Source: Roseivivax marinus (GTDB lineage Bacteria; Pseudomonadota; Alphaproteobacteria; Rhodobacterales; Rhodobacteraceae). From it: DNA of 64,000 nt. The notes under the pieces were generated by a model. It saw only the letters and a program-made list of their open reading frames with translations. It was not told where the DNA came from and ran no database searches. Below, piece after piece: positions 38,601 to 55,774 of the stretch; the first letter of the stretch is position 1; each line of letters opens with the position of its first letter. A program made the position numbers and the translations under genes. The stretch is from NCBI RefSeq assembly GCF_900109705.1, contig NZ_FOAI01000001.1, forward strand, positions 1-64,000, given 5' to 3'.

Positions 38601-38682
38601 GGGGGACGAGACCGTGGTCCTGTTCGCGGTGGAAGAGATGGTCTTTGCCGACGCGCCGGACGACGTGATCCCGACGAACTGA
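35656..38682 (+). CDS. Large secreted SGNH-hydrolase/glycosidase-like protein with RTX repeats
   Basis: 1,008 residues. A signal peptide (about 1-20) precedes an SGNH-like domain (about 22-265) with the nucleophile candidate Ser32 in WGNSLVDY and the catalytic-dyad candidate DDAPHG (near residues 220-225). A Glu/Asp/Ala-rich linker (about 290-355) follows. The large second domain (about 375-910) has GLNGISDWSTQHPF at its start and YSNEVWN with a candidate catalytic Glu near residue 623, as in clan GH-A-like barrels. A short block of calcium-binding repeats (about 920-960) closes the protein and fits type I secretion or calcium-dependent folding outside the cell. It sits at the edge of the polysaccharide locus, so modifying or cutting the exported glycan is a reasonable inference; neither activity is proven. 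Confidence 0.72.
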   Translation: MRAVLIPFLCLLALPVAVAADAPRALYVWGNSLVDYPDVDRASVPYWLGRMTEAEGRALSIDGQWGFLREFPDMEVAAEWQVEGVARLGSGDLSDYDAAILAPTNFIQYQPPGADYHEGDESPLDVTLAQVDRHPEDQPVLIYEGWADMGDYGFPPDRRAERRYHAANRGDYHDWHVDYLAELRAARPDRTFGLIPVAPVLSELLTGPLQGLEPELFYVDDAPHGTEDTYALAALVVHASLFGEVPGAFAPPATLADEVRAAWPQILRAVEDGVARLADVEVADWADRSETRAESDEAPEDEARRAAEDARSGAAEPPGTEDAAAGEDPDEEGEHVAAALARIAPEGDPLPPRSDVTLPPAGAEPDGAPALAVGLNGISDWSTQHPFIDLMKTSRPWIGHLPDQWGGVSTEELRVGGHLDAQGWPVRIPEGVARLETFILTDQPEAAEHLRGAYLLTYDGTGTLEVGGRARRVWYLPNEVTFHYAPGDGPVGIAITETDPDDPIRNIQVVRRDYMRLHEVGALFNPLWLDRIEDARAVRFMDWMMTNGSTAETWDDRPRMDDATWAEWGVPVEAMVRLANRIGADPWFTMPHRADDGYVRAFAEAVRDGLDPDLRAYVEYSNEVWNFTFPQARWAAERAREKWGESDTGWMQYYGLRAAQVMDLWSEVFGDAAGDRLVRVASTQTGWPGLEENVLTAPLAFLELGRPPSESFDAYAVTGYFGYEAGEPEAADVISGWLDRAEADARAEGEAGGLSRVALREYVDGARFEPAFGAMARAIREGSLATLTKELFPYHARVAEAAGLDLIMYEGGTHAAAQGEFVGDARYTDFLAAFSYSPEMAALYQEALDGWLAAGGRLFNAFVDVAPPSKWGSWGALRHLDDANPRWDVLMAHNASAPVDWQPRAADAFDGGMLRAAGEGGETLTGRAGPDILLGGPGDDVLRGGGGDDRLHGGLGRDRAVLPGARPDWRFDEDGPRLVATRGDETVVLFAVEEMVFADAPDDVIPTN
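38414..38532 (+). repeat. RTX-type calcium-binding nonapeptide repeats
   Basis: Codes for about four imperfect copies of GGxGxDxLx near the C-terminus of the SGNH/glycosidase-like protein: TGRAGPDIL, GGPGDDVL, GGGGDDRL and GGLGRDRA. Such repeats form a calcium-loaded parallel beta-roll in secreted proteins. The array is short and the last copy is degenerate. Confidence 0.8.
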
Positions 38683-38686
38683 GGCC

Positions 38687-39904
38687 CTAGCGGCGCGCCG
38701 CCACCGCACGCTCGATCTCGGCTGACAGCGCCTCGGCGCCCATGCGCGAGTCGAAGTGCGCCTCGACATGGGCGCGGCCTGCCCGGCTCAGTTCGCGGGC
38801 ATAGTCGGGGTCGGTGGCGAAGTCGCGGATCGCGCGCGCCAGGACGCCGGGGTTCTGCGGCAGCACGAGGATGCCGGTGCGCCCGTCGCGGATCAGTTCG
38901 CGCACGCCGCCCGAATCGGTGCCGAAGACGGGCACGCCGCAGGCCATCGCCTCCATGTAGGCCACGCCCAGCGGCTCGTGCCAGCTGGCCAGCACGAAGG
39001 CGTCGGCGCACAAAAGCTTGTCGCGCACCGCGTCCGCGTCGATCGCGCCGAGCAGTTTCACATGGTCGCGCAGGTGCAGCTGCTTGAGGTGCGCCTCCAG
39101 TTCGCGCCGGTAGCCGGTGCCGCCCTCGTCGTCCTCTCCGGCGATCTCGAGGCGGACGTCCACGCCCATGTCGAGCAGCTGACGCACCGCCGACATCAGG
39201 TCCTGATGTCCCTTCACCACGTTCAGCCGCCCGCAGGAAAACAGCCGCATGGGCCTTCCGTGGCTGACGGGCTCGTAGGGCGTCTCGCGGCGGAAGCGTT
39301 CGGTGTCGACGCCCATCGAGCGCACGATCACACGCTCGGGCAGCGCGTCGCCCAGGGTGGCTTCGGCCTCCTGACGCAGGGTCTCGGTGATGATCGTGGC
39401 GAAGTCCGCGCCGCTCCATTTGAAGTGCTGGCCGGGGCCGTAGTCCGACAGCGGCCCGTGCAGCGTCAGCGAATAGCCCGGTCCGTCCATGCGCGCGGCC
39501 AGCGCGGCGATCAGTGCGGCACGCCCACAGGAATGGACGTGGACGTGGTCGAGCCCCTCGGCGCGGGCGAGCCGGCGCAGGTGCCACGCCGCCGAAAGGG
39601 TCAGGAGCGCATCGCGCGAGAACCCGATGCCGCCGGACAGCATCCACATGTTCAGGCCGCGCGGCAGCAGTTCGGTCAAGGCGCGGGCGGCGGCGACCGG
39701 GTCCACCTGGCCGAGGTAGCGCGTCCGCGCGATGGCGTCGGCGGACCAGTCATGGGAGATCAGGCCGGCGGGGGGCTTGCGGGTGGAGAGCAGACGCACG
39801 TCATGCCCCAGCTTCTCCAGCGCCGCGATCTCGCGCCAGTAGAAGATGTGGGTCTGCCCCGGAAATTGGGGCACAAGATAACCGATCCGCGCGGGTCGGG
39901 TCAC
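38687..39904 (-). CDS. GT4-family glycosyltransferase
   Basis: 405 residues with a GT-B layout. The N-terminal Rossmann half (YLVPQFPGQTHIFYWREIAALEKLGHDV) is linked to a C-terminal half with GRLNVVKGHQDL (near residue 215) and the EX7E donor-sugar motif SWHEPLGVAYMEAMACGVPV (near residue 310), the mark of GT4 enzymes. No membrane segment. It would add one sugar to a lipid-linked glycan at the cytoplasmic face; donor and linkage unknown. It starts at GTG 39904 with a weak ribosome binding site and ends four bases from the stop of the convergent RTX gene. Confidence 0.85.
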   Translation of the reverse strand: MTRPARIGYLVPQFPGQTHIFYWREIAALEKLGHDVRLLSTRKPPAGLISHDWSADAIARTRYLGQVDPVAAARALTELLPRGLNMWMLSGGIGFSRDALLTLSAAWHLRRLARAEGLDHVHVHSCGRAALIAALAARMDGPGYSLTLHGPLSDYGPGQHFKWSGADFATIITETLRQEAEATLGDALPERVIVRSMGVDTERFRRETPYEPVSHGRPMRLFSCGRLNVVKGHQDLMSAVRQLLDMGVDVRLEIAGEDDEGGTGYRRELEAHLKQLHLRDHVKLLGAIDADAVRDKLLCADAFVLASWHEPLGVAYMEAMACGVPVFGTDSGGVRELIRDGRTGILVLPQNPGVLARAIRDFATDPDYARELSRAGRAHVEAHFDSRMGAEALSAEIERAVAARR

Positions 39905-40036: not shown

Positions 40037-40909
40037 GTGACGTTCTTGAACCACTCGACCGATCCGACGCCGCGGGAGCCGGCGCTGTCCGTGATCCTGC
40101 CCGCGTCGAACGAAGCCGGGCTGATCGGCATGTGCCTCGACGCCGTGGCCGCCTCGACCGAGGTGCCCGGCGGTGTGGAGGTCGTGGTGGTTGCCAATGG
40201 CTGCTCCGACGACACCGCCACGCGGGCGCGCGCCCATGCCCGTCGCTTCGCGGACCGTGGCTGGCGCCTCGAGGTGATCGAGCGGGACGAGGGCAACAAG
40301 ACCGCGGCGCTGAACGCGGGCGACAGTGCGGCGCGGAGCGGGGCGCGGGCCTATCTCGACGCCGACGTCGTGGTGGCACCGACGCTTCTGGCCGAGACGG
40401 TGCAGGCGCTGACCTCCCCGGGCGCGCGGTTCGTGTCCGGGCGGCTGGTCTTCGCCACCCCCGCCAGCGGATGGAGCCGCGCCTACGCCCGGTTCTGGCG
40501 CCGCGTGCCTTTCATGGCCGAGGGCGTGCCGGGCTGCGGGTTCTTCGCGGTGAACGCGGACGGGCGGTCGCGCTGGGGCGCGTTCCCCGACATCGTGTCC
40601 GACGACACCTTCGCCCGCCTGCACTTCGCCCCTGACGAGCGCCGGGCCGTGGCCGCCCCCTACAGCTGGCCGGTGGTCGAGGGGCTGGCGGCGCTCGTCC
40701 GCGTCCGCCGACGGCAGGATCGCGGCGTGAAAGAGGTGCGGCGACGCTTCCCCGAGCTTGTCCGGAACGAGGACGCCCTACCGTTTCCGCCCGCCGCCAA
40801 GGCGCGCGCCGCGCTGGCCGACCCGGCGGGCTTCGCCGTCTACGCGGGCGTCGCGGCGGCGGTGCGCCTGACGCCGCGCACCGATGGCGGCTGGAGCCGC
40901 GGGCGGTGA
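40037..40909 (+). CDS. GT2-family glycosyltransferase
   Basis: 290 residues, single GT-A domain. SVILPASNEAGLIGMCLDAV at the front, VVVVANGCSDDT near residue 50, GNKTAALNAG, and the metal-binding YLDADVV near residue 110 identify GT2. The GCGFFAVN...PDIVSDDTFARL block replaces the usual ED motif. The start is a GTG at 40037 without a ribosome binding site; an upstream TAAAAT (40023-40028) would place the transcript start within a few bases of the GTG, so a leaderless message is possible. It overlaps the flippase gene by four bases (GTGA) and opens the six-gene plus-strand operon with PKS and NRPS. Confidence 0.83.
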   Translation: MTFLNHSTDPTPREPALSVILPASNEAGLIGMCLDAVAASTEVPGGVEVVVVANGCSDDTATRARAHARRFADRGWRLEVIERDEGNKTAALNAGDSAARSGARAYLDADVVVAPTLLAETVQALTSPGARFVSGRLVFATPASGWSRAYARFWRRVPFMAEGVPGCGFFAVNADGRSRWGAFPDIVSDDTFARLHFAPDERRAVAAPYSWPVVEGLAALVRVRRRQDRGVKEVRRRFPELVRNEDALPFPPAAKARAALADPAGFAVYAGVAAAVRLTPRTDGGWSRGR

Positions 40910-42261
40910 TCGCCGCGAGCCTCGTGAACCGGTTCCGCGGCGCCTCGCTGACCGCGCGGGCGCTGCGGTCGTCGATGCTGACCTCGGGCGGCTTCGCGAC
41001 CACTCAGTTCCTGAGGCTCCTGTCGAACCTGATCCTGACGCGGCTCCTGTTTCCCGAAGCCTTCGGCCTGATGGCGCTGGTGTCGGTGTTCATGCAGGGG
41101 CTGGCGATGTTCTCGGACGTCGGCATCACGCCCGCGATCCTGCAATCGCGGCGGGGCGACGACCGCGACTTCCTGGACACCGCCTGGACAATCCAGGTGG
41201 GCCGGGGCCTGATCCTGTCCGCCGTCGCGGCGGCGCTGGCATGGCCCATGGCCTGGGCCTACGACGAGCCGATGCTGGCGCAGCTCCTGCCGGTGGCCGG
41301 GCTGACGCTGGCGATCGCTGGCTTCAACCCGACGCGGCTCGAGACCGCGGGGCGGCATCTGCTTCTGGGACGGGTCACGGCGATCGAGATCGTCACGCAG
41401 CTCGTTGGACTCGCCGTGGCGATCGGGCTGGCCTGGGCCACCGGATCGGTCTGGGCGCTGGTGGTCTCGGGGCTGGTGAGCCAGGCCGCGAACCTCGTTT
41501 TCCTCGACCGCTACCTGCCGGGCGAGCGCAACCGCTTCCGCTGGGAGGGTCCGGCCGCGCGGGAGTTGATCGGCTTCGGCAAGTGGATCTTCCTCTCCAC
41601 GGTCTGCGGCTTCGTGTTCATGCAGGGCGACAAGATCATCATCGGCCGCTACCTGCCGCTCGACCGGTTCGGGGTCTACAATATCGGCTACTTCCTCGCC
41701 TCGGTGCCGATGATGCTGGGCCACGTGGTCATGCGGAAGGTGCTGATCCCGGTCTACCGCGAGGCGCCGCCCAGGCAGAGCCGGGCGAACTTCCTCAAGC
41801 TGCGGCGGATGCGGTTCCTGGTCACGGGCCTGCTGATGACGATGGCCGGGGCGGCGGGACTTCTTGGCGTCTGGGCGGTGGGGCTTCTCTACGACCCGCG
41901 CTACCAGGCGGCGGGGGCCGTGGTGGTCCTGCTGGCGGTGGCGCAAGTGCCGCAGATCGTCGGGCTGACCTACGACCAGGCGGCGCTGGCGGCAGGAGAT
42001 TCGAGGCGGTTCTTCGTCCTCGCCGCGACCCGCGCCACGGTCATTGTCGCCGGCCTTCTGATCGGTCTGGAGCTGGCCGGTCTGCCGGGCGCGCTCTGGG
42101 GGCAGGTGGCCGCGCATCTTGCGACCTACCCGGCGGTGGCCTGGCTCGCCCGGCGCACCGGCGCGTGGGACCCGCTGCACGACGCGGCGGGATTCGCCCT
42201 TGGCGCGGCGGTCGCGGCGCTTGCGCTCTGGGTGAACGCGGGCGCGGTGGCGGGGCTGTGA
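40906..42261 (+). CDS. Wzx-type oligosaccharide flippase (MOP superfamily)
   Basis: 451 residues with about twelve membrane helices and small basic loops. The N-terminal FRGASLTARALRSSMLTSGGFATTQFLRLLSNLILTRLLFP pattern (first helix with Q/R-rich start) and internal GFGKWIF..........QGDKIIIGRYLPLDRFGVYNIGYFLASVP are typical of polysaccharide transporters of the RfbX/ExoT group. It would flip a lipid-linked glycan or glycolipid from the cytoplasmic to the periplasmic face. It starts at GTG overlapping the GT2 stop by four bases. A 147-base gap with AT-richer sequence precedes the PKS gene, which may have its own promoter. Confidence 0.88.
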   Translation: MIAASLVNRFRGASLTARALRSSMLTSGGFATTQFLRLLSNLILTRLLFPEAFGLMALVSVFMQGLAMFSDVGITPAILQSRRGDDRDFLDTAWTIQVGRGLILSAVAAALAWPMAWAYDEPMLAQLLPVAGLTLAIAGFNPTRLETAGRHLLLGRVTAIEIVTQLVGLAVAIGLAWATGSVWALVVSGLVSQAANLVFLDRYLPGERNRFRWEGPAARELIGFGKWIFLSTVCGFVFMQGDKIIIGRYLPLDRFGVYNIGYFLASVPMMLGHVVMRKVLIPVYREAPPRQSRANFLKLRRMRFLVTGLLMTMAGAAGLLGVWAVGLLYDPRYQAAGAVVVLLAVAQVPQIVGLTYDQAALAAGDSRRFFVLAATRATVIVAGLLIGLELAGLPGALWGQVAAHLATYPAVAWLARRTGAWDPLHDAAGFALGAAVAALALWVNAGAVAGL

Positions 42262-42408
42262 GGGCGGCCCGGCACCGTTGCGTGAAACGGGACGATCCCG
42301 CCATCTTTCGACTGTCGTGCCCGGTTGCGGACACGAATCCTCAAATCTGCCTAAATTCACTCCCATTTTACGGGTAAGCCGGTCACTCGACGGATAGGAT
42401 CCGAAGTC

Positions 42409-45400
42409 ATGACTGCACCGGAGAACCATGCCTCGGTGTCCGACACGGACATCGCCATCGTCGGACTGGCCGCGCATCTGCCCGGCTCCGATGGCATCGC
42501 CGCCTATTGGCGGGCGTTGCGCGATGGGGTGTGCGCGATCCGTCCCCTGTCCGAAGAGGACCTGCGCGCCGCGGGCGAGGATCCGGCCCGCATGCGGCAG
42601 CGCAACTACGTTGCCGCCGCCGCGATGCTCGACGGGTTCGAGATGTTCGACGCGGACGCCTTCGGCCTGTCGCAGAAGGACGCGGCGATCATGGATCCCC
42701 AGCACCGTCGCTTTCTCGAAACCGCGTGGGAGGCGTTCGACAATGCTGGACACGCGCCCGAGACCTTCGAGGGTCGCATCGGCGTCTTCGCGGGCTGCGG
42801 CGAGGGCACCTATTACCACCAGAACCTGCGCTCGCACCGCGACCTGGTGGACGAGACCGGGCTGTTCCTGTTGCGTCACACAGGCAACGACAAGGACTTC
42901 CTGACCACCCGCCTCAGCCACGTGATGAACCTCACCGGCCCGTCCGTGAACGTCCAGACAGCGTGCTCGACCTCGCTGGTGGCCGCGCATTACGGCGTGC
43001 AGGCGCTGCTGAACGGCGAATGCGACATGGCACTCGCCGGTGGCGTGACGATCGAGCTGCCGCAGGGGCGGGGCTATCTCCACAAGGAGAACGAGATCCT
43101 GTCGCCGGACGGCGCTTGCCACGCCTTCGACCATCGCGCGCAGGGCACGGTGTTCGGCTCGGGCGCGGGCGTGGTGGTGCTGCGCCGGCTGGCGGACGCC
43201 ATCGCCGACGGCGATCACATCTGGGCGGTCATCAAGGGCAGCGCGGTCAACAACGACGGCGCGGCCAAGGCCGGCTACCTCGCGCCCTCGGTGGACGGAC
43301 AGGCGCAGGCGGTGGCCGAGGCGCTGGCCGTGGCGGACGTGGATGCGGGCAGCATCGGCTATGTCGAGTGCCACGGCACCGGCACCTATCTCGGCGACCC
43401 GATCGAGGTCGCCGCGCTGACGCAGGCCTTCCGCCGCACCACGGATGCCGTGGGGCGCTGCCGCATCGGGTCGGTGAAGACCAATATCGGCCATCTCGAC
43501 ACGGCGGCCGGGGTGGCGGGGCTCATCAAGACCTCGCTCGCGCTGCATCACCGCCAGATCCCGCCGTCGCTGGGCTACGAGGCGCCGAATCCGGCCATAG
43601 ACTTCGCGAACTCGCCGTTCCGGGTGGCCGACCGGCTGACCGAATGGCCCTCGGACGGCCCGCGCCGGGCCGGGGTGAACGCGCTGGGCGTGGGCGGCAC
43701 CAACGCGCATCTCGTGCTGGAAGAGGCGCCGGAGCGCGCGCCGTCGGACGAGTCTGCCTTCCCGTTCCAGGTGCTGACCCTCTCGGGGCGCAGCAAGGCG
43801 GCGCTCGACGCGAACGCCGACCGGCTGGCCGCGCATCTGCGCGCCGATGCCACGCAGCCGCTGGCGGACGTGGCCTTCACGCTCAAGGACGGACGGCGCC
43901 CGCTGGAGCGGCGGCGGGTGGTGGTGGCCGAGTCCCACGCCGAGGCCGCGCGCCTGCTGTCCGGGGGCGATGCCGCACGCGTTCATGATCACCGGGCGCT
44001 GTCCGATCCGGACGTGGCCTTCCTGTTTCCCGGCGGCGGCGCGCAATATCCCGGCATGGCGCGCGACCTCTACGAGACCGAGCCGGTCTTCGCCGAGTGG
44101 ATGGATCGCGGGCTCGACCACCTCGCGACGCTGACCGGGACCGATCCGCGCGACGACCTGTTCCCCGAGGACGACAGCGCCGCCGCCGAGGTGCGGATGC
44201 GGCGCCCGTCGGTTCAGCTTCCGCTGATCGCCATCGTCGAGGTGGCGCTGGCCGAGCTGTGGCAAAGCTGGGGCGTGGTGCCCGCCGCCCTCGCCGGGCA
44301 CTCGATGGGCGAGAACGCCGCGGCCTGCGTCGCCGGGGTGATGGGTTTCGAGGACATGATCGGCCTCGTCCATCTGCGGGGCACGCTGTTCAACCGGCTC
44401 CCGGGCGGCGGGATGCTGTCGGTCCCGCTTTCCGCGGCGGCCTTGCGACCGCTCCTGGGGGATGACCTCGACCTTGCCGCCGAGAACGCGCCGGGGCTGT
44501 CCGTGGCCTCCGGTCCGTCCGGGGCGCTCGACCGGCTGGAGGCAGAGCTGGCAGCCGAGGGGATCGAGTGCCGGCGGATTGTCATCGACATCGCCGCGCA
44601 CAGCCGAACGCTGGAGCCGATCCTCGGCGAATTCCGGGAGCATCTTCAGACCATCCGGCTCAGCGCCCCGCGGATCCCGCTCGCGTCGAACCGCACCGGG
44701 ACGTGGATGACCGACGCGCAGGCGACCTCGCCCGACTACTGGGTCGAGCATCTGCGCCACGCGGTGCGCTTTGCCGAGTGCGTCGGAACGCTCGCGCGGC
44801 CGGACCGGGTGTTTCTCGAGGTCGGACCGGGGCGCGCGCTGGCCTCGCTCGCGCGGCAGCATCCCGAGGTGGATGGACAGGCGGTGGTGTCGAGCCTGCG
44901 GCACCCGGACGAGGCCATCGCCGACGACCGGCACCACCTCGAGGTCGTGGGACGGCTCTGGGCGCTGGGCGTCGAGGCCGACTGGGCGCAGGTCTGGGGC
45001 GAGGGGCGGCGCAATCGCGTGGTGCTGCCGGGCTACGCCTTCCAGCGCCAGCCCTACTACATCGCCCCGGCCGAGCCCGAGGCCGCCCCGGCGACCCTGC
45101 CCGCCCGCATCGACGACGTGGCGCGCTGGGGGTGGGTGCCGGCCTGGCGCCCGCGCACCGCCCCGGTCGAGATCGACGTGGAGCATGGTCTGCACGAGGC
45201 CGAACCGGAAACGTGGCTGTTCTTCGTGGACGGGTGCGGGGTGGCCGAGGCAGCCGCCCGCCGCCTGCGCGCGGTCGGTCACGATGTGGTCGAGGTGCGT
45301 GCGGGCGACGTCTTCGCGCGGACCGCGCCCGGACGTTACACGCTGGCCCCGGAACGCGCGCGGGACGAGCTTGAGCGGCTGTTCCGCGATCTCTCGGCCC

Positions 45401-48400
45401 GGGGGACGCGGCCCGACCGCATCGCGCATTACTGGCTGGTCACGGGCGACGAGGGCCACCGTCCGGGATCGAGCTTCTACCACCGGGTGCAGGAGCAGGG
45501 CTTCGAGACGCTGCTGGCGCTCGGGCAGGTGCTGGCCGAGGACGCGCCGTCGGGCGCGCTGCCGCTCACGGTCTTCACCAACGGTGCGGTGCGCGTCCGG
45601 AACGAGGCGCTGCCGCATCCGGCCAAGGCCACCATCGCCGGACCGGCGCGCGTGATCCCGCGCGAGGTGCCGGGCGTTCGCGTGGCTGTCCTCGACCTCG
45701 ACCTGCCGGTTGCGCCGCGGCGCCGCCCGCGCGATCTGCCGGTGCGCGACGTGCTGGAGGAGCTGCTGGCCGCGCCTGGCGATCGCTGGGCCGCCCTGCG
45801 CGGCGGTCGCCGCTACGAACAGGCGATGAAGCCGCGCGCGTTGCCCGAGGCGCCGCTGCCCGAAGCATCCTGCGTTCTCCTCACTGGCGGCTTCGGCGGT
45901 ATCGGCCTGACGCTTGCCCGCGCGCTGGCTGCCCGCGGCGCGCGCATCGCGCTGGTCGCGCGGGGGGAGGTGCCGGAGCGTTCCGGCTGGGACCACTGGC
46001 TGCGGACCCATGCGCCACAGGACCGTGTCTCGCGCCGGATTTCCGCGATCCGTGCGCTCGAGGCGGCCGGGGCCGAGGTCATGTGGCTCTCGGCCGACGT
46101 CTGCAACGAGGCCGACATGCGCGCGGCCCGGACGGCGGTCGAGGCGCGCTTCGGTCCGGTGGACGGCGTGATCCACGGCGCCGGCGTGATCGCCGACGCG
46201 CCGCTGCTGTCGAAGACGCCGGCGCAGGTCGAAGAGGTCTTCACACCGAAGATCCACGGCACAGACGTGCTGGCCCGCGTGTTCCCGGACGGCGACGTGA
46301 CGTGGATGGCGCTGTTCGCCTCGTCCTCCACGGTGACCGCGCCCGCGGGACAGGTCGATTACGTCGCCGCCAACGCCTACCTCAACGCCTGGGCCGAGGC
46401 GCGGGCCGGGGGTCGCACGCGGGTCGTCGCCCTGAACTGGGGCATCTGGTCCGAGGTGGGCATGGCCGCCGAAGCGGTCGCCGCGCGCACCGGCTCTGCC
46501 ACCGACACGCTGCCCGAGCCGGTCGCCGCACCGCTGCTGGACACCGCGCGCTTCGACCGGGACGGGCGCCGCGTGATCGAGACGCGCATCGCCGCCACCG
46601 ACTGGATCGCCGACGAGCACCGCCTGCGCACTGGTGAGGCGCTGCTGCCCGGGACCGGGACGCTGACGCTCATGGTCCACGCGCTCGCCGCGCAGGGCGT
46701 AGAGACGCCGGTGGAGCTGCGCGACGTGACCTTCCTGCGTCCGGTGACCATTCCCGAATCCGGCGCGCGCGACCTGAGGGTGCGGCTGACCGGTTCAGGG
46801 GCGGGGCACCGCATCGAGCTGCTGGCCGATGCGGACGCCGGGGGACGCGCGGGCCACGTCCTCTGCGCGCAGGGAACCGCGGCGCCCGGCCCGCACGCGG
46901 CCCCGATCCCGCTCGACCTGGCGTCGATCCGAGGTCGCCTCCGTCCGTCGAAGGACACCGCCCCCGGCAACACGTTGACCATTGAGCAGGAAGCGCACCT
47001 GGCCTTCGGGCCGCGCTGGCGGGTCCTGACGTCGCGCGCTCTGGGAGAGGGCGAGGGCCTGGCCGAACTGGCCCTGCCCGCGGCAGCGCGCGGCGACGCG
47101 GGCTTCGTCCTGCATCCCGGGCTTCTGGACATCGCGACCGGGTGGGCGATGGAGCTGGTCGCGGACTACCGCCCGAGCCACCTCTGGGCGCCGCTGTCCT
47201 ACGACCGGATCACCATCCATGCGCCGTTGCCCGCGCGCCTCGTCAGTTGGGTGCGGCTGTCCGGCGGCGACAGTGCGCACGAGGGTGCTACGCGGTTCGA
47301 CGTGACGCTGGCCGCGCCCGACGGCGCCGTCGCCGTAGAGATCGAGGGCTTCGAACTCCGTCGTCTCGCCGATCCCCAGAGCCTCGCGCGGCCCACGCCG
47401 CCGACGCCCGCCGAGATCGAGGTCGAGGCCACCCCGGGCGACGCGCCCCTGTCCCCGGCGGAAGAGCGGCTGGTGCAGGCGCTCGACCAGGGCATCCGGC
47501 CGCAGGAGGGCGCCGACGCCTTCGCCCGCGCCATGGCGCTGGGCGTGCCGCAGGTGGTGGTGTCGTCCATGGACATGGGCGCGCTGACCCGCGCAACCGC
47601 CGAGGCCGCGCGCCCCGAGGCGCAGGGCCACACCTTCGAGCGCCCGACCCTCGACAGCGACTATGCCGCCCCCGAGACAGAGGTGGAAAAGGCCCTCGCG
47701 GGGATGTGGGCGGAGCTTCTGGGCGTGGCAAAAATGGGCGTGGACGACGACTTCTTCGACCTTGGCGGCCACAGCCTGATCGCGGTGCGGCTGTTCTCGC
47801 AGGTCCGCCGGGCCTTCCGGGTCGATTTCCCGATCTCGGTGCTGTTCGAGGCACCGACGATCCGCGCCTGCGCCGCGCTGATAGAGGGGCGCCGCGGCGC
47901 GACGGGGACCGGGCCGGCGGCGACCTCGGAACCGGCGCGACCGGCCCGCGAGCCGCGGTTCATGCATCTAGTCGCCATGCACGAGGGCTCGGGTGGCCCG
48001 AAGGCGCCGCTGTTCGTTGTGTCGGGCATGTTCGGCAACGTGCTGAACCTGCGGCACCTCGCGCATCTCGTCGGGCAGGACAGGCCGTTCTGGGGCCTAC
48101 AGGCCCGCGGCCTTTTCGGCGACGCCGCGCCGCACCGCACGATCCCCGAGGCGGCACGCGATTACATTGCCGAGATCAAGCAGGTCTGCCCGGATGGCCC
48201 CTACCTGATCGGCGGGTTCTCGGGGGGCGGGATCACCGCGTTCGAGATCGCGCGGCAGCTCGAGGCCGCGGGCGACCGGGTGGCGCTGGTGGCCCTTCTC
48301 GACACGCCGCTGCCGCAGCGCCGGCCGCTGCTGGCGCGGGACCGTGCGCTGATCCAGCTGCACGAACTTCGGCGCCGGGGTCTGACCTATCCGCTGACAT

Positions 48401-48828
48401 GGGCCAGGAACCGCGTCGCCTGGGAGATCGCGAAGCGTCGTGCGCCGGTCCGGACCGCGGAAGAGACGCGCTTCCACGATGCCGAGATCGAGGCCGCTTT
48501 CCTCGAGGCCGCCGCGGCCTACGAGGTGCAGCCCTGGGACGGGAGGCTGGCGCTGTTCCGGCCACCGCTCAAGGGCCACTGGAAGGTGTCGGGCGGGCGC
48601 TGGGTGGACAGCCAGCGCGCCTACCTCTTCCACGACAACGACTGGGGTCGCTTCGTTCCCTGTGTCGAGGTGCACGAGGTTCCGGGCGACCACGATTCCA
48701 TGGTGCTGGAGCCCAACGTCCGCGTTCTCGCGCGCACGCTGGGACGCGCGATCGCCCGCGCCGAAGCCGAGGAGCGTGATGCCGCCGGGCGGGTGGTGCC
48801 GTTCCGGCGGCTGGAGGCCGCGGAATGA
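42409..48828 (+). CDS. Type I polyketide synthase, KS-AT-KR-DH-ACP-TE
   Basis: 2,139 residues, one complete module with release domain. Ketosynthase (about 12-440): Cys186 in TACSTSL, HGTGT near 322, NIGHL near 362. Acyltransferase (about 535-830): Ser near 631 in GHSMGE. A structural half-reductase (about 885-1140) then the ketoreductase (about 1150-1370) with TGGFGGIG and the Ser/Tyr/Asn active site (LFASSSTV, VDYVAANAYLNAW). Dehydratase-like double hotdog (about 1400-1660) with His in DEHRLRTGEALLPGTG and Asp in LHPGLLDIATG; the first motif is one residue longer than usual. Carrier (about 1735-1810) with Ser near 1788 in DLGGHSLIA. Thioesterase (about 1835-2115) with Ser near 1937 in GFSGGG and GDHDSM. 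KR lies before DH, the reverse of the common order. It overlaps the next gene by four bases. Confidence 0.92.
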   Translation: MTAPENHASVSDTDIAIVGLAAHLPGSDGIAAYWRALRDGVCAIRPLSEEDLRAAGEDPARMRQRNYVAAAAMLDGFEMFDADAFGLSQKDAAIMDPQHRRFLETAWEAFDNAGHAPETFEGRIGVFAGCGEGTYYHQNLRSHRDLVDETGLFLLRHTGNDKDFLTTRLSHVMNLTGPSVNVQTACSTSLVAAHYGVQALLNGECDMALAGGVTIELPQGRGYLHKENEILSPDGACHAFDHRAQGTVFGSGAGVVVLRRLADAIADGDHIWAVIKGSAVNNDGAAKAGYLAPSVDGQAQAVAEALAVADVDAGSIGYVECHGTGTYLGDPIEVAALTQAFRRTTDAVGRCRIGSVKTNIGHLDTAAGVAGLIKTSLALHHRQIPPSLGYEAPNPAIDFANSPFRVADRLTEWPSDGPRRAGVNALGVGGTNAHLVLEEAPERAPSDESAFPFQVLTLSGRSKAALDANADRLAAHLRADATQPLADVAFTLKDGRRPLERRRVVVAESHAEAARLLSGGDAARVHDHRALSDPDVAFLFPGGGAQYPGMARDLYETEPVFAEWMDRGLDHLATLTGTDPRDDLFPEDDSAAAEVRMRRPSVQLPLIAIVEVALAELWQSWGVVPAALAGHSMGENAAACVAGVMGFEDMIGLVHLRGTLFNRLPGGGMLSVPLSAAALRPLLGDDLDLAAENAPGLSVASGPSGALDRLEAELAAEGIECRRIVIDIAAHSRTLEPILGEFREHLQTIRLSAPRIPLASNRTGTWMTDAQATSPDYWVEHLRHAVRFAECVGTLARPDRVFLEVGPGRALASLARQHPEVDGQAVVSSLRHPDEAIADDRHHLEVVGRLWALGVEADWAQVWGEGRRNRVVLPGYAFQRQPYYIAPAEPEAAPATLPARIDDVARWGWVPAWRPRTAPVEIDVEHGLHEAEPETWLFFVDGCGVAEAAARRLRAVGHDVVEVRAGDVFARTAPGRYTLAPERARDELERLFRDLSARGTRPDRIAHYWLVTGDEGHRPGSSFYHRVQEQGFETLLALGQVLAEDAPSGALPLTVFTNGAVRVRNEALPHPAKATIAGPARVIPREVPGVRVAVLDLDLPVAPRRRPRDLPVRDVLEELLAAPGDRWAALRGGRRYEQAMKPRALPEAPLPEASCVLLTGGFGGIGLTLARALAARGARIALVARGEVPERSGWDHWLRTHAPQDRVSRRISAIRALEAAGAEVMWLSADVCNEADMRAARTAVEARFGPVDGVIHGAGVIADAPLLSKTPAQVEEVFTPKIHGTDVLARVFPDGDVTWMALFASSSTVTAPAGQVDYVAANAYLNAWAEARAGGRTRVVALNWGIWSEVGMAAEAVAARTGSATDTLPEPVAAPLLDTARFDRDGRRVIETRIAATDWIADEHRLRTGEALLPGTGTLTLMVHALAAQGVETPVELRDVTFLRPVTIPESGARDLRVRLTGSGAGHRIELLADADAGGRAGHVLCAQGTAAPGPHAAPIPLDLASIRGRLRPSKDTAPGNTLTIEQEAHLAFGPRWRVLTSRALGEGEGLAELALPAAARGDAGFVLHPGLLDIATGWAMELVADYRPSHLWAPLSYDRITIHAPLPARLVSWVRLSGGDSAHEGATRFDVTLAAPDGAVAVEIEGFELRRLADPQSLARPTPPTPAEIEVEATPGDAPLSPAEERLVQALDQGIRPQEGADAFARAMALGVPQVVVSSMDMGALTRATAEAARPEAQGHTFERPTLDSDYAAPETEVEKALAGMWAELLGVAKMGVDDDFFDLGGHSLIAVRLFSQVRRAFRVDFPISVLFEAPTIRACAALIEGRRGATGTGPAATSEPARPAREPRFMHLVAMHEGSGGPKAPLFVVSGMFGNVLNLRHLAHLVGQDRPFWGLQARGLFGDAAPHRTIPEAARDYIAEIKQVCPDGPYLIGGFSGGGITAFEIARQLEAAGDRVALVALLDTPLPQRRPLLARDRALIQLHELRRRGLTYPLTWARNRVAWEIAKRRAPVRTAEETRFHDAEIEAAFLEAAAAYEVQPWDGRLALFRPPLKGHWKVSGGRWVDSQRAYLFHDNDWGRFVPCVEVHEVPGDHDSMVLEPNVRVLARTLGRAIARAEAEERDAAGRVVPFRRLEAAE

Positions 48829-49820
48829 CCGGGACCTCCCCCCGCCTCCTGGTCGTGGTGCTGAACTGGCGCACCGCAGACATGAGCCTGCGCGCAACCC
48901 GCGCCGCGGCGACGGCGCTCGCCGGTCTGGATGCCGAGGTGGTGGTCGTCGACAACGACAGCGGGGACGGGTCCGAGGCGCACCTGCGCGCGGGCCTCGC
49001 CAAGGGGTCGTGGCCGGTGCCTGTGCGCGTGGTCCAGAGCGGGCGCAACGGCGGTTTCGGCGCGGGCATGAATGCCGGCATCCGGACGGGCCGCGCCGAT
49101 GGCATGGCGCCGGACTACATCTACATCCTCAACTCCGACGCCTTCCCCGAGGCGGGCGCGATCCGCGCGCTGGTCGATCACCTGGAGGCGCATCCCGAGG
49201 CGGGGTTCGCGGGAAGCGCGATCGTCGGCGAGGACGGTGCGGTGCATCAGACCGCCTTCCGCTTTCCCTCGGCGCTGTCCGAGTTCGAGGGCGCGGTGCG
49301 GTTCGGCCCGGTCACGCGGATGTTGTCCCGGCGCCGGGTGCCGATGCCGGTCCCGCGGGAGACAGGTCCGGTGGACTGGCTGTCGGGCGCGTCGCTGATG
49401 ATGCGGACCGCCGTGCTGGACCGGATCGGCCTCTTCGACGAGGGCTACTTTCTCTATTTCGAGGAGACCGACCTGTGCCGGCGCTGCGCCGAGGCGGGCC
49501 ATGCCGTGCACTACGTCGCCGAGAGCCGGGTGATGCATCTCGGATCGGTCTCGACCGGCATGTCGACGTGGTCGCAGGTGCCGGACTACTGGTTCGACAG
49601 CCGCTGGCGGTACTTCGAGGCTCGGGGCGGGAGACGCGCCGCCGCGGGCGCGACGCTGGCGCACCTCGCGGGCGCCGCGCTGGGCCGGGTCAAGGACGCG
49701 GTGAAGGGCGTCGCCCCGCCACGCGGCCTGCCGGGCGGCGTGCGGATGGCGCGCCACGCGCTGCGCCGGATGCGGACGCCGGTCCACGCCGCACCATCCG
49801 TGAAGGAGCCGGGGACATGA
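48825..49820 (+). CDS. GT2-family glycosyltransferase, rhamnosyltransferase-like
   Basis: 331 residues. The GT-A fold begins RLLVVVLNWRTADMSLRAT, with VVVVDNDSGDGS near residue 40, RNGGFGAGMNAGI, and YILNSDAFP near 105 in place of DxD. The later WLSGASLMMRTAVLDRIGLFDEGYFLYFEETDLCRR stretch (written here in part: FDEGYFLYFEETDL) is characteristic of rhamnosyl- and N-acetylglucosaminyl-type GT2 enzymes. It lacks membrane helices. The start overlaps the PKS stop (ATGA) and its stop overlaps the NRPS start (ATGA). This wedges it between the two assembly-line genes and suggests that it glycosylates their product or works in the same step series. Confidence 0.87.
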   Translation: MTGTSPRLLVVVLNWRTADMSLRATRAAATALAGLDAEVVVVDNDSGDGSEAHLRAGLAKGSWPVPVRVVQSGRNGGFGAGMNAGIRTGRADGMAPDYIYILNSDAFPEAGAIRALVDHLEAHPEAGFAGSAIVGEDGAVHQTAFRFPSALSEFEGAVRFGPVTRMLSRRRVPMPVPRETGPVDWLSGASLMMRTAVLDRIGLFDEGYFLYFEETDLCRRCAEAGHAVHYVAESRVMHLGSVSTGMSTWSQVPDYWFDSRWRYFEARGGRRAAAGATLAHLAGAALGRVKDAVKGVAPPRGLPGGVRMARHALRRMRTPVHAAPSVKEPGT

Positions 49821-52800
49821 GTGCCTTCGTCGCGATTCTCTGGGGCAACGACACCCTGACGCTGGAATGCGGCCGCACGATGCTGGCGCGCGGGCATCGG
49901 ATCGCGGCAGTGGTGACCCGCTCGGACGCGGTGCGGGCGTGGGCCGCCGACGCGGGCCTCGCCGTCCGCGCGCCCGAGACGCCCCCGGCCGATGTGCCCT
50001 GCGACTGGCTGTTCAGCATCGCGAATCTCGACCTGATCCCCGAGGCCATGCTGGCGGTGCCCCGGCAGGGCGCGGTGAACTTCCACGACGGGCCGCTGCC
50101 GCGCCACGCGGGCCTCAACGCGCCGGTCTGGGCGCTGATCGAGGGCGAGCGTCGCCACGGCATCACCTGGCACCTGATCGAGGGCGGCGTGGACGAGGGC
50201 GACATCCTCGTGGAGCGCGCCGTCGACATCGCGCCGGACGACACCGCGCTGACCCTCAACCTGCGCTGTTTCGAGGCCGCTCTGGGATCGTTCGACGCGC
50301 TGCTCGCGGCGCTCGGGACCGGAGCGGCCGAGCGGGTGCCGCAGGACCTGTCGCGGCGCAGGGTCCACCGCCGCGCGGATCGTCCGGACGGGCAGGGTGT
50401 GCTGGACGTCACGCGTCCCGCTGATGAACTGGAAAGGCTGGTGCGCGCGCTCGATCACGGCGCGTACTGGAACCCGCTCTGCCTGCCGAAGCTGAGGATC
50501 GACGGGCGGGTGCTGGTCGTGGCGTCCGCCGAGATCACGGAGGGCGACGGGTCCCCCGGCGCCGTGCTTCGCACCGGGGACAGCGCGGCTGTCGTCGCCT
50601 GCGGAACCGGCGCGCTCGCGCTTCGGCTGGAAGAGATGGACGGCAGGGCGGTCGACCCGGCGACGCTCACCGGGCCGGCCGAAGCGCCGGATGGCAACGA
50701 ACCCGACGTGGCGCGACACGAGCCGTTCTGGCGCGACCGGCTGGCGGAGATGGTCCCGGCGACGGTCCCGGGCGCGCGGCCCGGGGACGGAGAGCCGATC
50801 ACGCTGACGCTCGACCCGCGCGTTGATGCGGCCTGCCTTGCTGCGCTTGCCGTGCACCTCGCGAGCGATGCGGCCTGTGACGTGGCGTGGCGTGCGTCGG
50901 GCGTGGCGCGCTTGTCCCAAGATGGCCTCGTCGCCGGATGGGTGCCGCTGCGCGTGGCACCCGCGCCGCTGGGCACGATTGCCGGAACGCTGGCCGACGC
51001 GCGGGTCGCGCTGGCCCGCCGCGGTGCCATCGCCGCCGACCTGTTCCGGCGCGCCCCCGAGCTGCGGGGCGCCTCGACACCCGCGATCGGCCTGTCCGAA
51101 GACGGGCCGGTGCCCGGCTGCGCGGTGACGATGGAACTGGGCGACGTCACCCGCCTGCACGCCGATCCCGCGCGGATCTCGCCCGAGCACGCGCGTCTGC
51201 TGGCGCGGCGGCTCGAGGCGCTGGCCGCCGAGGACCCGACCACCCCCTTCGCCGAGCTGCCCCGCCTGTCCGAGGCCGAGGCAGAGGCAATCCGCGGCTG
51301 GAACGCCACCGAAACGCGCGTCACGCCCGCGACCATGCACACGCTGTTCGAGGCGCAGGTGGACCGGACCCCGGAGGCGACCGCGCTGATCTTCGAGGAC
51401 CGGCGGCTCGACTATGCCACGCTGGACGCCCGCGCCAACGCCGCCGCGCACATCCTGCGTGGCATGGGCGTGGGGCCGGGCACCGTCGTCGGACTTGCCT
51501 GCGCGCGGTCCTTCGACCTCGTGGTCGGCGCCTACGCGATCCTCAAGGCCGGTGGCGCGTACCTGCCTCTCGACCCGGCCTATCCCGAGGACCGGCTGCG
51601 CCACTACCTGTCCGACAGCGGCGCGCGGATGGTGGTCACACAGTCGGCGCTGGCGGACGGGCTGCCGGGCCGGGGCCTCGCGACGCTCTGCCTCGATACC
51701 GATCCGCGTCTGGCGCGGGCTCCGACGACACGGCCCGTGCCGCGAGCGGTGCCGGGGGACCTCGCCTACCTGATCTACACCTCCGGCTCGACCGGCGTGC
51801 CCAAGGGCGTGATGGTCGAACACGCGCAGGTCGCCAACTTCTACGCCGGAATGGACGCCGTCGTGCCCGAGCCGGACGGAACGTGGCTGGCGGTGACGTC
51901 GCTCAGCTTCGACATCTCCGTGCTCGAGCTCTTCTACACCACGGCCCGCGGCGCGACCGTGGTGATCGCGTCGGACGCCGACCGCAGCACCGTCTCGCGC
52001 GGGCCGGTGCGGCGGCGGGGCATGGACATGTCGCTCTATTACTGGGGCAACGACGACGGCATCGGGCCGGACAAGTACCGCACCCTGATCGAGGGCGCGC
52101 GCTTTGCGGACAAGGCCGGCTTCTGCGCGGTCTGGACGCCGGAGCGGCACTTCCACGCCTTCGGCGGGCCCTATCCGAATCCCTCCGTCACCGGAGCGGC
52201 GGTCGCTGCCGTGACCGACCGGATCGGGGTGCGGGCCGGGTCCTGCGTTGCGCCGCTGCACCATCCCGCGCGGATCGCCGAGGAATGGGCGGTGATCGAC
52301 AACCTCACCGACGGGCGCGCGGGACTGGCCATCGCCTCGGGCTGGCAGCCGGACGACTTCGTGCTCCGCCCCGAGAACACGCCGCCCGCGAACAAGCCCG
52401 CAATGATCGAGACCATCGACACCCTGCGCAGGCTCTGGCGCGGCGAGGCGGTGGCCTTCCCCCGTGCCGACGGCAGCTTGCACGAGGTCGTCACCCAGCC
52501 GCGCCCGGTCTCGCGCGAGTTGCCGGTCTGGGTGACCACCGCCGGCAACCCCGAGACATGGCGCGAGGCCGGCCGGCTGGGCGCGAACGTCCTGACGCAT
52601 CTTCTGGGGCAATCGGTGGCCGAGGTGGGCGAGAAGATCGCGCTCTACCACGCTGCGCTACGCGAGGCGGGGCACGATCCCGCCCGGTTCAGCGTGACGC
52701 TGATGCTGCACACCTATCTCGCCGACAGTCGCGAGGCCGCGCGCGAGATCGCGCGGGAGCCGATGAAGGACTACCTGCGTTCGGCCGCGGGACTCATCAA

Positions 52801-54445
52801 GCAGTACGCCTGGGCCTTTCCGGCGTTCAAGCGGCCACAGGGCGTGGACGCCGCACACCAGCTGGATCTCGGGACGCTCTCGGCGGACGAGCTGGAAGGC
52901 ATCCTCGACTTCGCATTTGAGCGCTACTTCACCGACAGCGGGCTTTTCGGCACCGAGGATGACGCGGTCGCACGGGCCGAGGCGCTGTCCGCGATCGGCG
53001 TGACCGAGATCGCCTGCCTGATCGACTACGGCATCGCGCCAGACGCGGTCCTGGACGGCTTGCGGCCGCTGGCCCGCGCCCTCGACCGGATGGCGGCGCA
53101 GCCCGGACCCGCAAAGGACGACTTTTCCATCGCCGCGCAACTCGTGCGGCACCGGGTCACCCACCTGCAATGCACGCCCTCGATGGCGCGGATGATCGCC
53201 ATGTCCGACGACGCGCGCGACGCGTTGTCCGGCCTGCGTCACCTGTTCCTGGGCGGAGAGGCGCTGCCCGGTCCCCTGGTCGAGGAGTTCGCGGCCCTGA
53301 CCGGTGCGAGCGTCACCAACATGTACGGACCCACCGAGACGACGATCTGGTCGGCGACCTCGGCCGCGCGGCCGGGGGCGGGGGTTGTGGACCTGGGCTA
53401 TCCCGTCGCGAACACCGCGCTGCACGTTCTCGACGACGACCGCGTGCCGGTGCCGGTGGGGGCAGAGGGAGAGCTGTGGATCGGCGGCGCCGGCGTCACG
53501 CGGGGCTACTGGAACCGGCCGGACCTGACCGCCGAGCGTTTCGCGCTGGACCTTTCCGGACGGGGGCGGATGTATCGCACCGGGGATCTGGTGCGCCGCC
53601 GCGCGGACGGGCGGCTCGATTTCCTCGGACGCGCGGACGGACAGGTCAAGCTGCGAGGCCACCGCATCGAGACCGGAGAGATCGAGGCCGCGCTGGAGGC
53701 CGATCCGCATGTCCGGCAGGCCGCCGTGGTCGCGCGGGAGGATCGTCCGGGCGACTTGCGGCTCGTGGCTTACGTTGCCGGGCCGGGGATCGACGCCGGC
53801 GCCCTGAAGGCGCGGTTGGGCGCTCGTCTGCCCGCCATCATGGTGCCGTCGCGTTTCGTGGTGTTGGACGCGTTGCCGCTGACGCCCAACCGCAAGGTGG
53901 ACCGCGGGGCGTTGCCGGCTCCGGATAAGGCGGCTCCGACGGAGCGGGCCGAGGCGTACAAAGATCAGAGGCTGCCCGAGGGCCGCGGTGCCCGTGCCAT
54001 TGGCATCGCCGCACCGAAGGCGCGCGCCATTGCTCCTGCGCCGTCTCGACGTGGGGCGGCCGCCACGGTCGCGCACGCCGCCGGGAACCACGCGGATCGC
54101 GACGGCGCGCAACCGCGCATCGCGACGATCTGGGCCCGCATCCTCGGGGTCCCGACGCCCTCCGGTGGGGACAGTTTCTTCGATATGGGCGGCCATTCCC
54201 TGCTGGCGGTGGAGGCCCACCGCGCGATAAGGGACGAGCTTTCGGTGCCGGCCCTGTCGATCACCGACATCTTCCGCTTCCCGATGCTTGCCGACCTTGC
54301 GCGGCGGGTCGATGCGCTGGCCGATACCGTGCCCGGCCCGGCCGTCGCCGCAGTCGATCCGGCCCGCCCGCAGACCGCGGGAGCCGGGACACGGGCGGAC
54401 ATCATGGCCCGGCGCCGCGTCATGCGCGCCCGGCGGCGGGCCTGA
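49817..54445 (+). CDS. NRPS: formyltransferase - degenerate C - adenylation with inserted luciferase-like monooxygenase - PCP
   Basis: 1,542 residues. Domain 1 (about 1-290) is a methionyl-tRNA formyltransferase-like domain with the complete catalytic triad Asn88, His90 and Asp126, at exactly the 38-residue Asn-Asp spacing of E. coli Fmt (108/146). A shortened condensation-like part (about 300-490) keeps a VPLRV-type strand but lacks HHxxxDG. The adenylation domain starts near 500 ([15 protein letters not shown], then FDISVLELF), is interrupted at about 735-1095 by a flavin luciferase-like monooxygenase ([45 protein letters not shown]), and resumes with [15 protein letters not shown] and [12 protein letters not shown] carrier follows (Ser near 1461 in MGGHSLLA). 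This is the MupA/Atu3671 layout. Expected action: load an amino acid, formylate its nitrogen and oxidise the tethered acyl chain. Confidence 0.9.
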
Positions 54446-54457
54446 AGGAGAACGGAC

Positions 54458-55774
54458 GTGACTGCATTCCAAAGCTCCGACGAGGTCTTCGCGGCCCTGC
54501 GCCGGCGGGCTTTCCTGATCGTGCTTCTGACCGCACTCGGCTGCGCGGCGTCGGTCTGGGTCGCGTTGCAGCAGGACAAGCTCTACGAGGCGACCGCCGT
54601 AGTGCAGATCGAGGACGCGCGCATCCCCGACCGGATGACCGGTCAGGCCGCGCCCGAGGTCGATCCGGGCCGCCGCGTGCGACTGATCGAGCAACGCCTG
54701 ATGGCACGCGACAACCTGCTGTCGCTGATGGAAGAATACAGTCTCTTCCCCGATGAGGACTCGATGAACGAACGGATCTTCGCGCTGCGTCAGGCGGTGT
54801 CGCTCGAGGAGATCCGCGGCAACGCGCAGCCCTGGCAGACCGACATCGCGCCCTCGGGGCTCAGGATCACCGTGCGGCTCGACGATCCCTCGGACGCGGC
54901 GGCGGTAGCCAACGATCTCATGGCATCGGTCATCGCCGAGGCCGAGACCCGGAGCGCCGCCCGCGCCCGCGAAACCGTGGCGTTCTTCGCGTCGGAGGCG
55001 GATCGCGTCGCCTCCGAGATCGCAGAAGCGGAAAGCGCCATCGCCGCCTTCAAGACCGAGAACTCCGAGGCGCTGCCGGAAGGTACCGTGGCGCTGCGGG
55101 ACCAGCTGTCCACGCTGCAGGAGAACCTGCTGGCTCTCGACCGCGAGATCATCGCGATGCAGAACAATTCCAGCCGTCTGCGTCAGGACGAGCTGACGCG
55201 TCAGGTGGCGCTTCTGCGCGAGCAGCGCACGCTGGTGGACGAGCGTATCACCCGGCTGGAGGCGAACCTTGCCCGCGCCCCCGAGGTCGAGCGCGCGCTT
55301 GGCGCGCTCGAGCGGGACCTGTCGCAGTTGCAGGAGCGATACGGCGTGGTGAACCGCCGCCGCGCAGACGCCGAGATGGCGCAGGTCCTGCAAGACCAGG
55401 AGGCCGCCGACCGCTTCGAGGTGCTGGAAACCGCGCTGGAGCCCGAGACCGCGATTTCCCGCAGCAAGCGCAAGGTCGCGGCGGCGGGCGGCTTGGTCAG
55501 CCTGTTCCTCGCCGTGGGGATCGCCGTGCTGATCGAGCTTTTGAACCCGGCGATCCGCACGGCGGGCCAGCTCGAGCGGCAGCTCGGCGTGTCTCCGGTG
55601 GTGGCGATCCCGGTGATCCGCACCCGGCGCGATCGCGGGCGGCGGGGCCTTCTGTGGCTTGGCGGCCTTGCCGTGGCGATTGCCGCCGCCTGGCTGGCGC
55701 TGCGGACCTTCGGTGGTGCCATCGTCGACAGCGGCGTTCTCTCCCGACTGCCGTTTCCGCGCGGCGGGTCCTGA
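54458..55774 (+). CDS. Wzz/Wzc-type polysaccharide co-polymerase (membrane part only)
   Basis: 438 residues. An N-terminal helix (about 17-37), a Wzz-type periplasmic domain (about 40-160), a long coiled coil (about 165-340), the second helix (about 350-372) followed by LLNPAIRTAGQLERQLGVSPVVAIPVI, and unusually a third helix near the C-terminus (about 398-418). Such proteins set chain length and couple polymerisation to export. The cytoplasmic tyrosine kinase normally fused to it (Wzc) is encoded separately on the opposite strand just downstream. It starts at GTG with AAGGAGA upstream, 12 bases after the NRPS stop, and closes the plus-strand operon. Confidence 0.88.
   Translation: MTAFQSSDEVFAALRRRAFLIVLLTALGCAASVWVALQQDKLYEATAVVQIEDARIPDRMTGQAAPEVDPGRRVRLIEQRLMARDNLLSLMEEYSLFPDEDSMNERIFALRQAVSLEEIRGNAQPWQTDIAPSGLRITVRLDDPSDAAAVANDLMASVIAEAETRSAARARETVAFFASEADRVASEIAEAESAIAAFKTENSEALPEGTVALRDQLSTLQENLLALDREIIAMQNNSSRLRQDELTRQVALLREQRTLVDERITRLEANLARAPEVERALGALERDLSQLQERYGVVNRRRADAEMAQVLQDQEAADRFEVLETALEPETAISRSKRKVAAAGGLVSLFLAVGIAVLIELLNPAIRTAGQLERQLGVSPVVAIPVIRTRRDRGRRGLLWLGGLAVAIAAAWLALRTFGGAIVDSGVLSRLPFPRGGS

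Follow-up and report, generated by a model that had tools for sequence, protein, structure and literature searches.

In this work, we provide evidence that two biosynthetic enzymes of Roseivivax marinus, a polyketide synthase (PKS) and a nonribosomal peptide synthetase (NRPS), very probably form an assembly line coupled to one polysaccharide pathway. The window, by which we mean the whole analysed stretch of 64,000 nucleotides, opens a contig of 545,681 bases in a genome of 4.0 Mb and has a GC content of 70%. The explanation we prefer, with a probability of roughly 0.6, is that the two enzymes are a dedicated line making a short acyl unit destined for a single, specific exopolysaccharide that depends on Wzx; the sequence features described below suggest that this unit is probably built covalently into the glycan. 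The cassette comprises six plus-strand genes in the order glycosyltransferase of family 2 (GT2), Wzx, PKS, GT2, NRPS and a Wzz-like protein. This order had been claimed in the original prediction, made from the letters of the window, and is borne out by gene calls and Pfam matches; the gene overlaps it named are exact (GTGA at 40906, ATGA at 48825, ATGA at 49817). Its Wzz call stands in Pfam by a narrow margin, and the best NCBIfam match lies below its own cut-off. The cassette and the gene of the secreted protein that accompanies it are as follows:

35656-38682, plus strand: secreted-type RTX protein, 1008 aa, with an SGNH-like N-part, a glycosidase-like middle and RTX repeats
40037-40909, plus strand: GT2 glycosyltransferase (Glycos_transf_2, E 1.2e-15), with a GTGA overlap with wzx
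40906-42261, plus strand: Wzx-type flippase of the subfamily that tracks the NRPS (Polysacc_synt_3, E 1.2e-50)
42262-42408, plus strand: gap of 147 nt before the PKS gene, containing a tentative short element at 42344-42360
42409-48828, plus strand: type I PKS of one module, 2139 aa, with ketosynthase (KS), acyltransferase (AT), ketoreductase (KR), dehydratase (DH), acyl carrier protein (ACP) and thioesterase (TE) domains by Pfam
48825-49820, plus strand: GT2 glycosyltransferase between PKS and NRPS, with an ATGA overlap at each end
49817-54445, plus strand: NRPS starter module, 1542 aa, with formyltransferase (F), linker, adenylation (A) domain split by a luciferase-like monooxygenase (LLM) and peptidyl carrier protein (PCP)
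54458-55774, plus strand: Wzz-like chain-length protein (Pfam Wzz 26.0 bits, cut-off 25.5; TIGR03007, the XrtA chain-length family, below cut-off)

The strongest evidence for the coupling of the cassette to a polysaccharide is co-occurrence. Among 101 genomes of relatives the NRPS was present in 29, including 8 of the 9 in the genus. The Wzx subfamily was found in 28 genomes (E<=1e-50; all matches at <=1.3e-126), the interleaved GT2 also in 28 (E<=1.3e-89), and the RTX secreted protein in 27 (E<=1e-40), and every one of these genomes was NRPS-positive; weaker GT2 matches, at 31-33% identity, came from genomes G019 and G030. Counted the other way, genomes with an NRPS ortholog carried Wzx in 28/28 cases, GT2 in 28/28 and the RTX protein in 27/28, and all three were absent from the other 73. 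The NRPS-positive genome without Wzx and GT2 is G030, the NRPS of which is 64-66% identical to the Aliiroseovarius type and 45-53% identical to that of the window. As a control, PF13440 flippases as a whole (E<=1e-10) occurred in 57 of the 101 genomes, that is, in all 28 and in 29 of the 73 others.

The partners need not be neighbours. In G042 the Wzx gene lies 1.49 Mb and the RTX gene 0.58 Mb from the NRPS on the same contig; both are off the NRPS contig in G055, Wzx alone in G048 and the RTX protein alone in G034 and G045; in these split cases the contig extends for at least 14 kb to each side of the NRPS. Wzx and the RTX protein thus co-occur with the NRPS even when far from it, and therefore the link is not merely a shared address. 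In 24 of 27 genomes, the nearest PF13440 flippase was less than 17 kb away from the NRPS (77 matches over all 27, distances taken by hand).

Distance correlations point in the same direction. With the rpoB contribution removed, they reached 0.85 for PKS-NRPS (24 genomes), 0.86 for PKS-Wzx (21), 0.86 for NRPS-Wzz (14) and 0.83 for PKS-GT2 (24), rpoB itself giving 0.59 with the PKS and 0.59 with the NRPS; physical linkage alone could explain part of these values. The corrected correlations leave out G035 and G040, where rpoB is broken, and separate earlier ones left out loci L007-L009. A first rpoB control was discarded, the longest open frames often not being RpoB (mean distance 0.52).

The arrangement of the cassette is more than chance, since the three-gene block turns up repeatedly across a family. 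A draw of 149 genomes from the order yielded the NRPS in 64, and one of 249 from the phylum yielded it in 9, of which 7 belong to the family; the three draws (101, 149 and 249 genomes) overlap. Gene context was read in two sets of loci. The wide-context set holds 33 loci, namely 27 genomes (R. marinus included) and 6 plasmid records, with G036 and G030 left out for their short contigs. PKS-GT2-NRPS stand on one strand in 29 of the 33, the exceptions being G017, in which PKS and NRPS are each in two pieces with the order kept, Shinella L007 and Aminobacter L008, in which the two genes are divergent, and Aliiroseovarius L009. The named-locus set, with about 10 kb on each side, is the best 80 of at least 569 genome-contig matches and leans to close relatives; here a script found the block in 77 loci, or 78 when L166 with its NRPS in two pieces is counted, and L168 and L201 have PKS-NRPS with no glycosyltransferase between them. 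The emphasis previously laid on the glycosyltransferase between the synthases holds as the usual state in the family, not as a universal one: an essential role for it is ruled out by the divergent pairs of Shinella, Aminobacter and Neorhizobium and by L168 and L201.

The original prediction would have failed if homologous PKS/NRPS genes consistently sat away from glycosyltransferases and wzx/wzz, and this is not so. Strict polysaccharide markers (Wzx, Wzz, BY-kinase, sugar-transferase, Wza-type) were found in 31 of the 33 wide-context loci, all but G048, which has a WecB-type glycosyltransferase, and L009. They were found in 57 of the 80 named loci, a count that rises to 70 with WecB-type glycosyltransferases and to 75 with Wzy-like proteins, the latter being Wzy_C matches below the Pfam cut-off. 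Two of the remaining five, L158 and L162, hold seven glycosyltransferase or sugar genes each. Relatives also carry sugar-transferase, Wza-type and weak Wzy_C genes, and a phosphopantetheinyl transferase (PPTase) gene is present in 72 of the 80 named loci. On plasmids, seven records place the system beside polysaccharide genes: Ruegeria conchae, Parasedimentitalea marina, Paracoccus marcusii, Shinella zoogloeoides, Aminobacter MSH1, Rhizobium BG6 and Neorhizobium SOG26. The PKS was covered to at least 80% in 17 plasmid records, and 16 of them, all but Tateyamaria omphalii, also figure in the list of 20 NRPS records. In Deinococcus L207 the system adjoins CapK-like, polysaccharide biosynthesis and UDP-glucose dehydrogenase genes.

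Two distant loci deserve a description of their own. The Deinococcus actinosclerus plasmid (L207:12738-26570) has a GNAT/FemAB-like gene, a separate formyltransferase, an A(LLM)-PCP protein and a PKS in a capsule-like locus. Hydrogenophaga pseudoflava (L140:8624-26762), which is one of the 80 named loci, has PKS-GT2-NRPS-PPTase, a gene for a sugar transferase and a second NRPS whose start resembles a fatty acyl-AMP ligase (FAAL).

Several points weigh against the preferred explanation. The RTX protein was not found in one NRPS-ortholog genome, G031; the counts over the 101 genomes were made for the NRPS, Wzx, GT2, RTX protein and PF13440 and do not include the PKS; and the Fisher test applied to them ignores the relatedness of the genomes. 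Loci L145, L157 and L177 show no polysaccharide marker in the stretches fetched. A related F-A(LLM)-PCP and PKS system in Aliiroseovarius L009 lies outside polysaccharide genes, and so, judged by sequence, does the Aliiroseovarius-type system of G030. In R. marinus itself, BLAST labels at positions 20001-104000 of the contig (C24) revealed no Wzy, no initiating sugar transferase and no Wza, and none of the genes called at 34122-63992 was recognised as a transferase that would pass the acyl unit on to a sugar.

The best-surviving alternative is that the product is a free secreted metabolite (a signal, metallophore or antibiotic) which has only its address and inheritance in common with the polysaccharide genes. 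PKS/NRPS products are usually free, a TE is able to hydrolyse, the Aliiroseovarius cousin manages outside polysaccharide genes, and LLM relatives under 50% identity were found in Streptomyces, Nostoc and others. Nevertheless, we regard it as unlikely in view of the tight co-occurrence with one Wzx subfamily, even when unlinked, and of the polysaccharide context over several orders; moreover, no match to a small-molecule exporter was obtained among the genes called at 34122-63992.

The domain composition of the NRPS suggests how the line would start. The order is formyltransferase, linker, A domain with an embedded flavin mononucleotide (FMN)-dependent luciferase-like monooxygenase, and PCP; no condensation (C) domain was detected by Pfam at E<=0.001. 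The model of residues 1-510 shows the ArnA/Fmt fold for the formyltransferase domain (pLDDT 90.1). Catalytic residues of the NRPS and PKS were checked in 32 sequences, from 26 genomes (R. marinus included) and 6 plasmid records; the Asn/His/Asp of the formyltransferase is intact in 32/32. By its features (intact formyltransferase, A and PCP, no functional C domain upstream) the NRPS would thus qualify as a formylating initiation module. The linker between the formyltransferase and the A domain could be what is left of a condensation domain, namely its C-lobe, a weak indication only; the match was too poor (hhalign E 0.0049, probability 7%) for a relict C domain to be accepted. The A domain is interrupted after its FDIS motif by the LLM insertion, which matches TIGR04020 over model positions 1-339 of 341 with 467.8 bits against a cut-off of 244.45. 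Aligned by hand to the GrsA numbering, the nine positions of the A-domain code read in the 32 relatives D, I, L, Q, variable, G, M (31/32), I (31/32) and W, a pattern that resembles glycine codes. The amino acid is therefore probably glycine.

The PKS carries KS, AT, KR, DH, ACP and TE and no enoylreductase (ER) by Pfam. Its key residues (KS Cys/His/His, AT Ser, KR Ser/Tyr, DH His/Asp, ACP Ser, TE Ser/Asp/His) are conserved in 32/32, and 7/32 have another residue in place of the final Gly of the KR cofactor motif. With KS, AT and ACP bearing their catalytic residues, the protein has the features of a type I modular PKS. The AT substrate motif is IAAHS, which differs from both HAFH and YASH.

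That the NRPS acts before the PKS, a possibility raised previously, is supported by the lack of a C domain in the NRPS, by the TE on the PKS and by the Aliiroseovarius cousin. On the plasmid of Aliiroseovarius M344 (L009:17992-31731), beside nos genes, an F-A(LLM)-PCP protein is followed by a single KS-AT-KR-DH-ACP-C-A-PCP-TE protein. In gene order, too, the NRPS comes before the PKS in Methylobacterium bullatum and Deinococcus actinosclerus. For an NRPS-first line, the product had been predicted as a formylated, oxidised amino acid extended by one reduced ketide; this can be refined in that the amino acid is probably glycine and the ketide would be dehydrated as well, any position given for the LLM oxidation being tentative. 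A possible, still tentative product is N-formylglycine extended by one unit that is reduced and dehydrated, e.g., 4-formamidobut-2-enoate, as deduced from the domain order on the assumption of a non-iterative PKS.

The dedicated line would then work as follows. The NRPS would load glycine and N-formylate it; the embedded FMN monooxygenase would oxidise the glycine unit, perhaps at the alpha carbon; the PKS would add one unit, reduce and dehydrate it, and the TE would release a 4-formamidobut-2-enoate-like product, possibly oxidised further. In the least certain step, the acyl unit would be attached to one of the repeat-unit sugars, possibly the one that the interleaved GT2 adds, before flipping by Wzx. 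The TE could transfer the acyl group directly to the sugar, or the free acid could be used by another enzyme. A GNAT/FemAB protein was considered as the transferase and rejected, such a gene being seen in Deinococcus L207 only; genes of similar size in Methylobacterium L206 and Rhizobium L204 had no BLAST match to it.

The proposed product also bears on a second alternative, by which it is a lipid anchor or primer of the polysaccharide, as has been proposed for Sinorhizobium RkpA. The position of the PKS within a polysaccharide locus would suit this, as would the FAAL-like domain of the second NRPS in Hydrogenophaga, but one extension module, a formylated glycine starter and no ER would give a short polar product unless the PKS is iterative, and we consider an anchor or primer somewhat less probable still than a free metabolite. 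The original wording, that the product decorates, primes or anchors a glycan, stands as far as coupling to a polysaccharide is concerned, in view of the co-occurrence and context; of the three roles, any of which would be tentative, anchoring is less likely because a one-module product is short. Least probable of all is that the GT2, joined to both synthases by ATGA overlaps and co-occurring with the NRPS, glycosylates the acyl product and Wzx exports a small glycoside with no polymer, given that relatives carry the Wzz, BY-kinase, Wza-type, WecB-type and Wzy-like genes of a polymer pathway and that Rhizobiales, L168 and L201 lack a GT2 between the two synthases.

The secreted RTX protein and a neighbour of the cassette would be in keeping with a dedicated acyl unit on an exopolysaccharide. 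Pfam covers only the RTX repeats of the former; its model reveals an SGNH-like domain, with DUF4886 as the best match (target TM 0.64), and a middle part with weak matches to glycosidase folds and conserved SNEVWN and MYEGG motifs. A second SGNH-like protein, assigned by eye, gave profile matches in 46 of 115 loci, partly within RTX-labelled proteins. Both would fit a glycan with acyl groups, though such domains have many roles. The second protein, which has no Pfam or NCBIfam match, adjoins the cassette in many relatives (L004:23309-24247, L005:22608-23504).

The cassette had been described as one operon. Because of the 147-nt gap between wzx and the PKS gene (42262-42408), a single six-gene operon is not demonstrated, and there may be two or more transcription units; a scan of the gap for sigma-70 promoters and terminators found nothing. 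The six genes are uniform in third-position GC content (0.87-0.92). The short element at 42344-42360 lies 65 nt before the PKS start, with similar ones at 63-69 nt in several close relatives. It was chosen by eye from nine loci and, at a score of at least 14, occurs before 12 of 104 PKS genes (seeds excluded) vs. 5 of 491 unlabelled genes, other genes of the locus mostly lacking it; in view of the by-eye choice and the modest enrichment, it was set aside as evidence.

The locus extends past the six genes, with the RTX protein and a glycosyltransferase of family 4 (GT4) on the left and BY-kinase-like, sugar-nucleotide and glycosyltransferase genes on the right:

38687-39904, minus strand: GT4 glycosyltransferase (Glycos_transf_1, E 3.1e-34)
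56023-56946, minus strand: BY-kinase/CpsD-like P-loop protein (CbiA, E 3.2e-9; BLAST label in relatives)
57865-59967, minus strand: fused Gfo/Idh/MocA oxidoreductase and NAD epimerase
59979-60953, minus strand: GT2 glycosyltransferase
60950-62200, minus strand: GT4 glycosyltransferase (longer frame scanned)
62197-63177, minus strand: NAD-dependent epimerase/dehydratase (longer frame scanned)
63165-64000, minus strand: Gfo/Idh/MocA-type oxidoreductase, continuing beyond the window to about 64295

Its right end is a WecB-type glycosyltransferase at 64508-65269 of the contig, outside the window. HslV-like and HslU-like genes follow (L094:1333-3269, contig 65333-67269), and in G002 and G006 the WecB-type gene is followed by genes of equal length, which marks where the locus ends on the right. 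Apart from the locus, a cellulose-synthase-type membrane GT2 is encoded at 24986-26962 of the window.

The system can be compared with several known ones. RkpA-type PKSs belong to rhizobial K-antigen (surface-polysaccharide) loci and are lipid-related; the PKS gene here is likewise within a surface-polysaccharide locus, but has one module and an NRPS starter. Dlt and AlmEFG use an A domain and a carrier protein to provide a surface glycan or glycolipid with an amino acid. The A domain and carrier are common to both, whereas the cassette encodes a complete NRPS-PKS line for formylation, oxidation and chain extension, and a dedicated transferase beside A and carrier was not recognised among the genes called at 34122-63992. 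With the Wzx/Wzy-dependent pathway, the cassette shares its Wzx flippase (Polysacc_synt_3). The closest likeness to the NRPS is LgrA of linear gramicidin synthetase, chains of which are its best solved matches and which also starts F-A-PCP with no upstream C domain; unlike LgrA, the NRPS here has an A domain split by the FMN monooxygenase and a Gly-like code, passes its product to a PKS and lies in a polysaccharide locus. The LLM exceeds the family cut-off of the MupA/Atu3671 domains (TIGR04020), with PuwE as the solved match for this region. In the plasmid records its identities show a break, 16 records lying at 64-80% and the remainder at 55% and below. What sets it apart from other LLMs of the family is this clade at 64% and above, in which the 7 of 16 records with context read all adjoin polysaccharide genes.

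In Phaeobacter inhibens T5, a member of the same clade, the PKS Inhi_1972 and the NRPS Inhi_1974 are recorded one gene apart, as here, with a 2007 study cited (PMC4062626), and to judge from this spacing they are probably the same cassette. The text of PMC4062626 available to us treats roseobacter PKS/NRPS as secondary metabolism, separate from polysaccharide genes. The original statement that no characterised system has this set of genes thus needs qualification: in that text the PKS and NRPS genes are already on record, without the polysaccharide context. Among open-licence papers in PubMed Central, we found none that ties the cassette to a polysaccharide. The enzyme types are known; their combination and likely role are not described in the literature searched.

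Such genes are currently filed as orphan NRPS/PKS natural-product clusters. Taken together, the results give about even odds that a widespread class of polysaccharides bears a PKS/NRPS-made formamido-acyl group on its repeat unit and has its own Wzx subfamily, being distributed over much of the Rhodobacteraceae with a related form in Rhizobiales, a Hydrogenophaga and a Deinococcus. If this is true, an orphan cluster common in an abundant marine family would be a glycan-modification system, and purified exopolysaccharide, not culture extract, would be the place to look for its product. The aminoacyl decoration of surface glycans would extend from single A-carrier pairs to full assembly lines.

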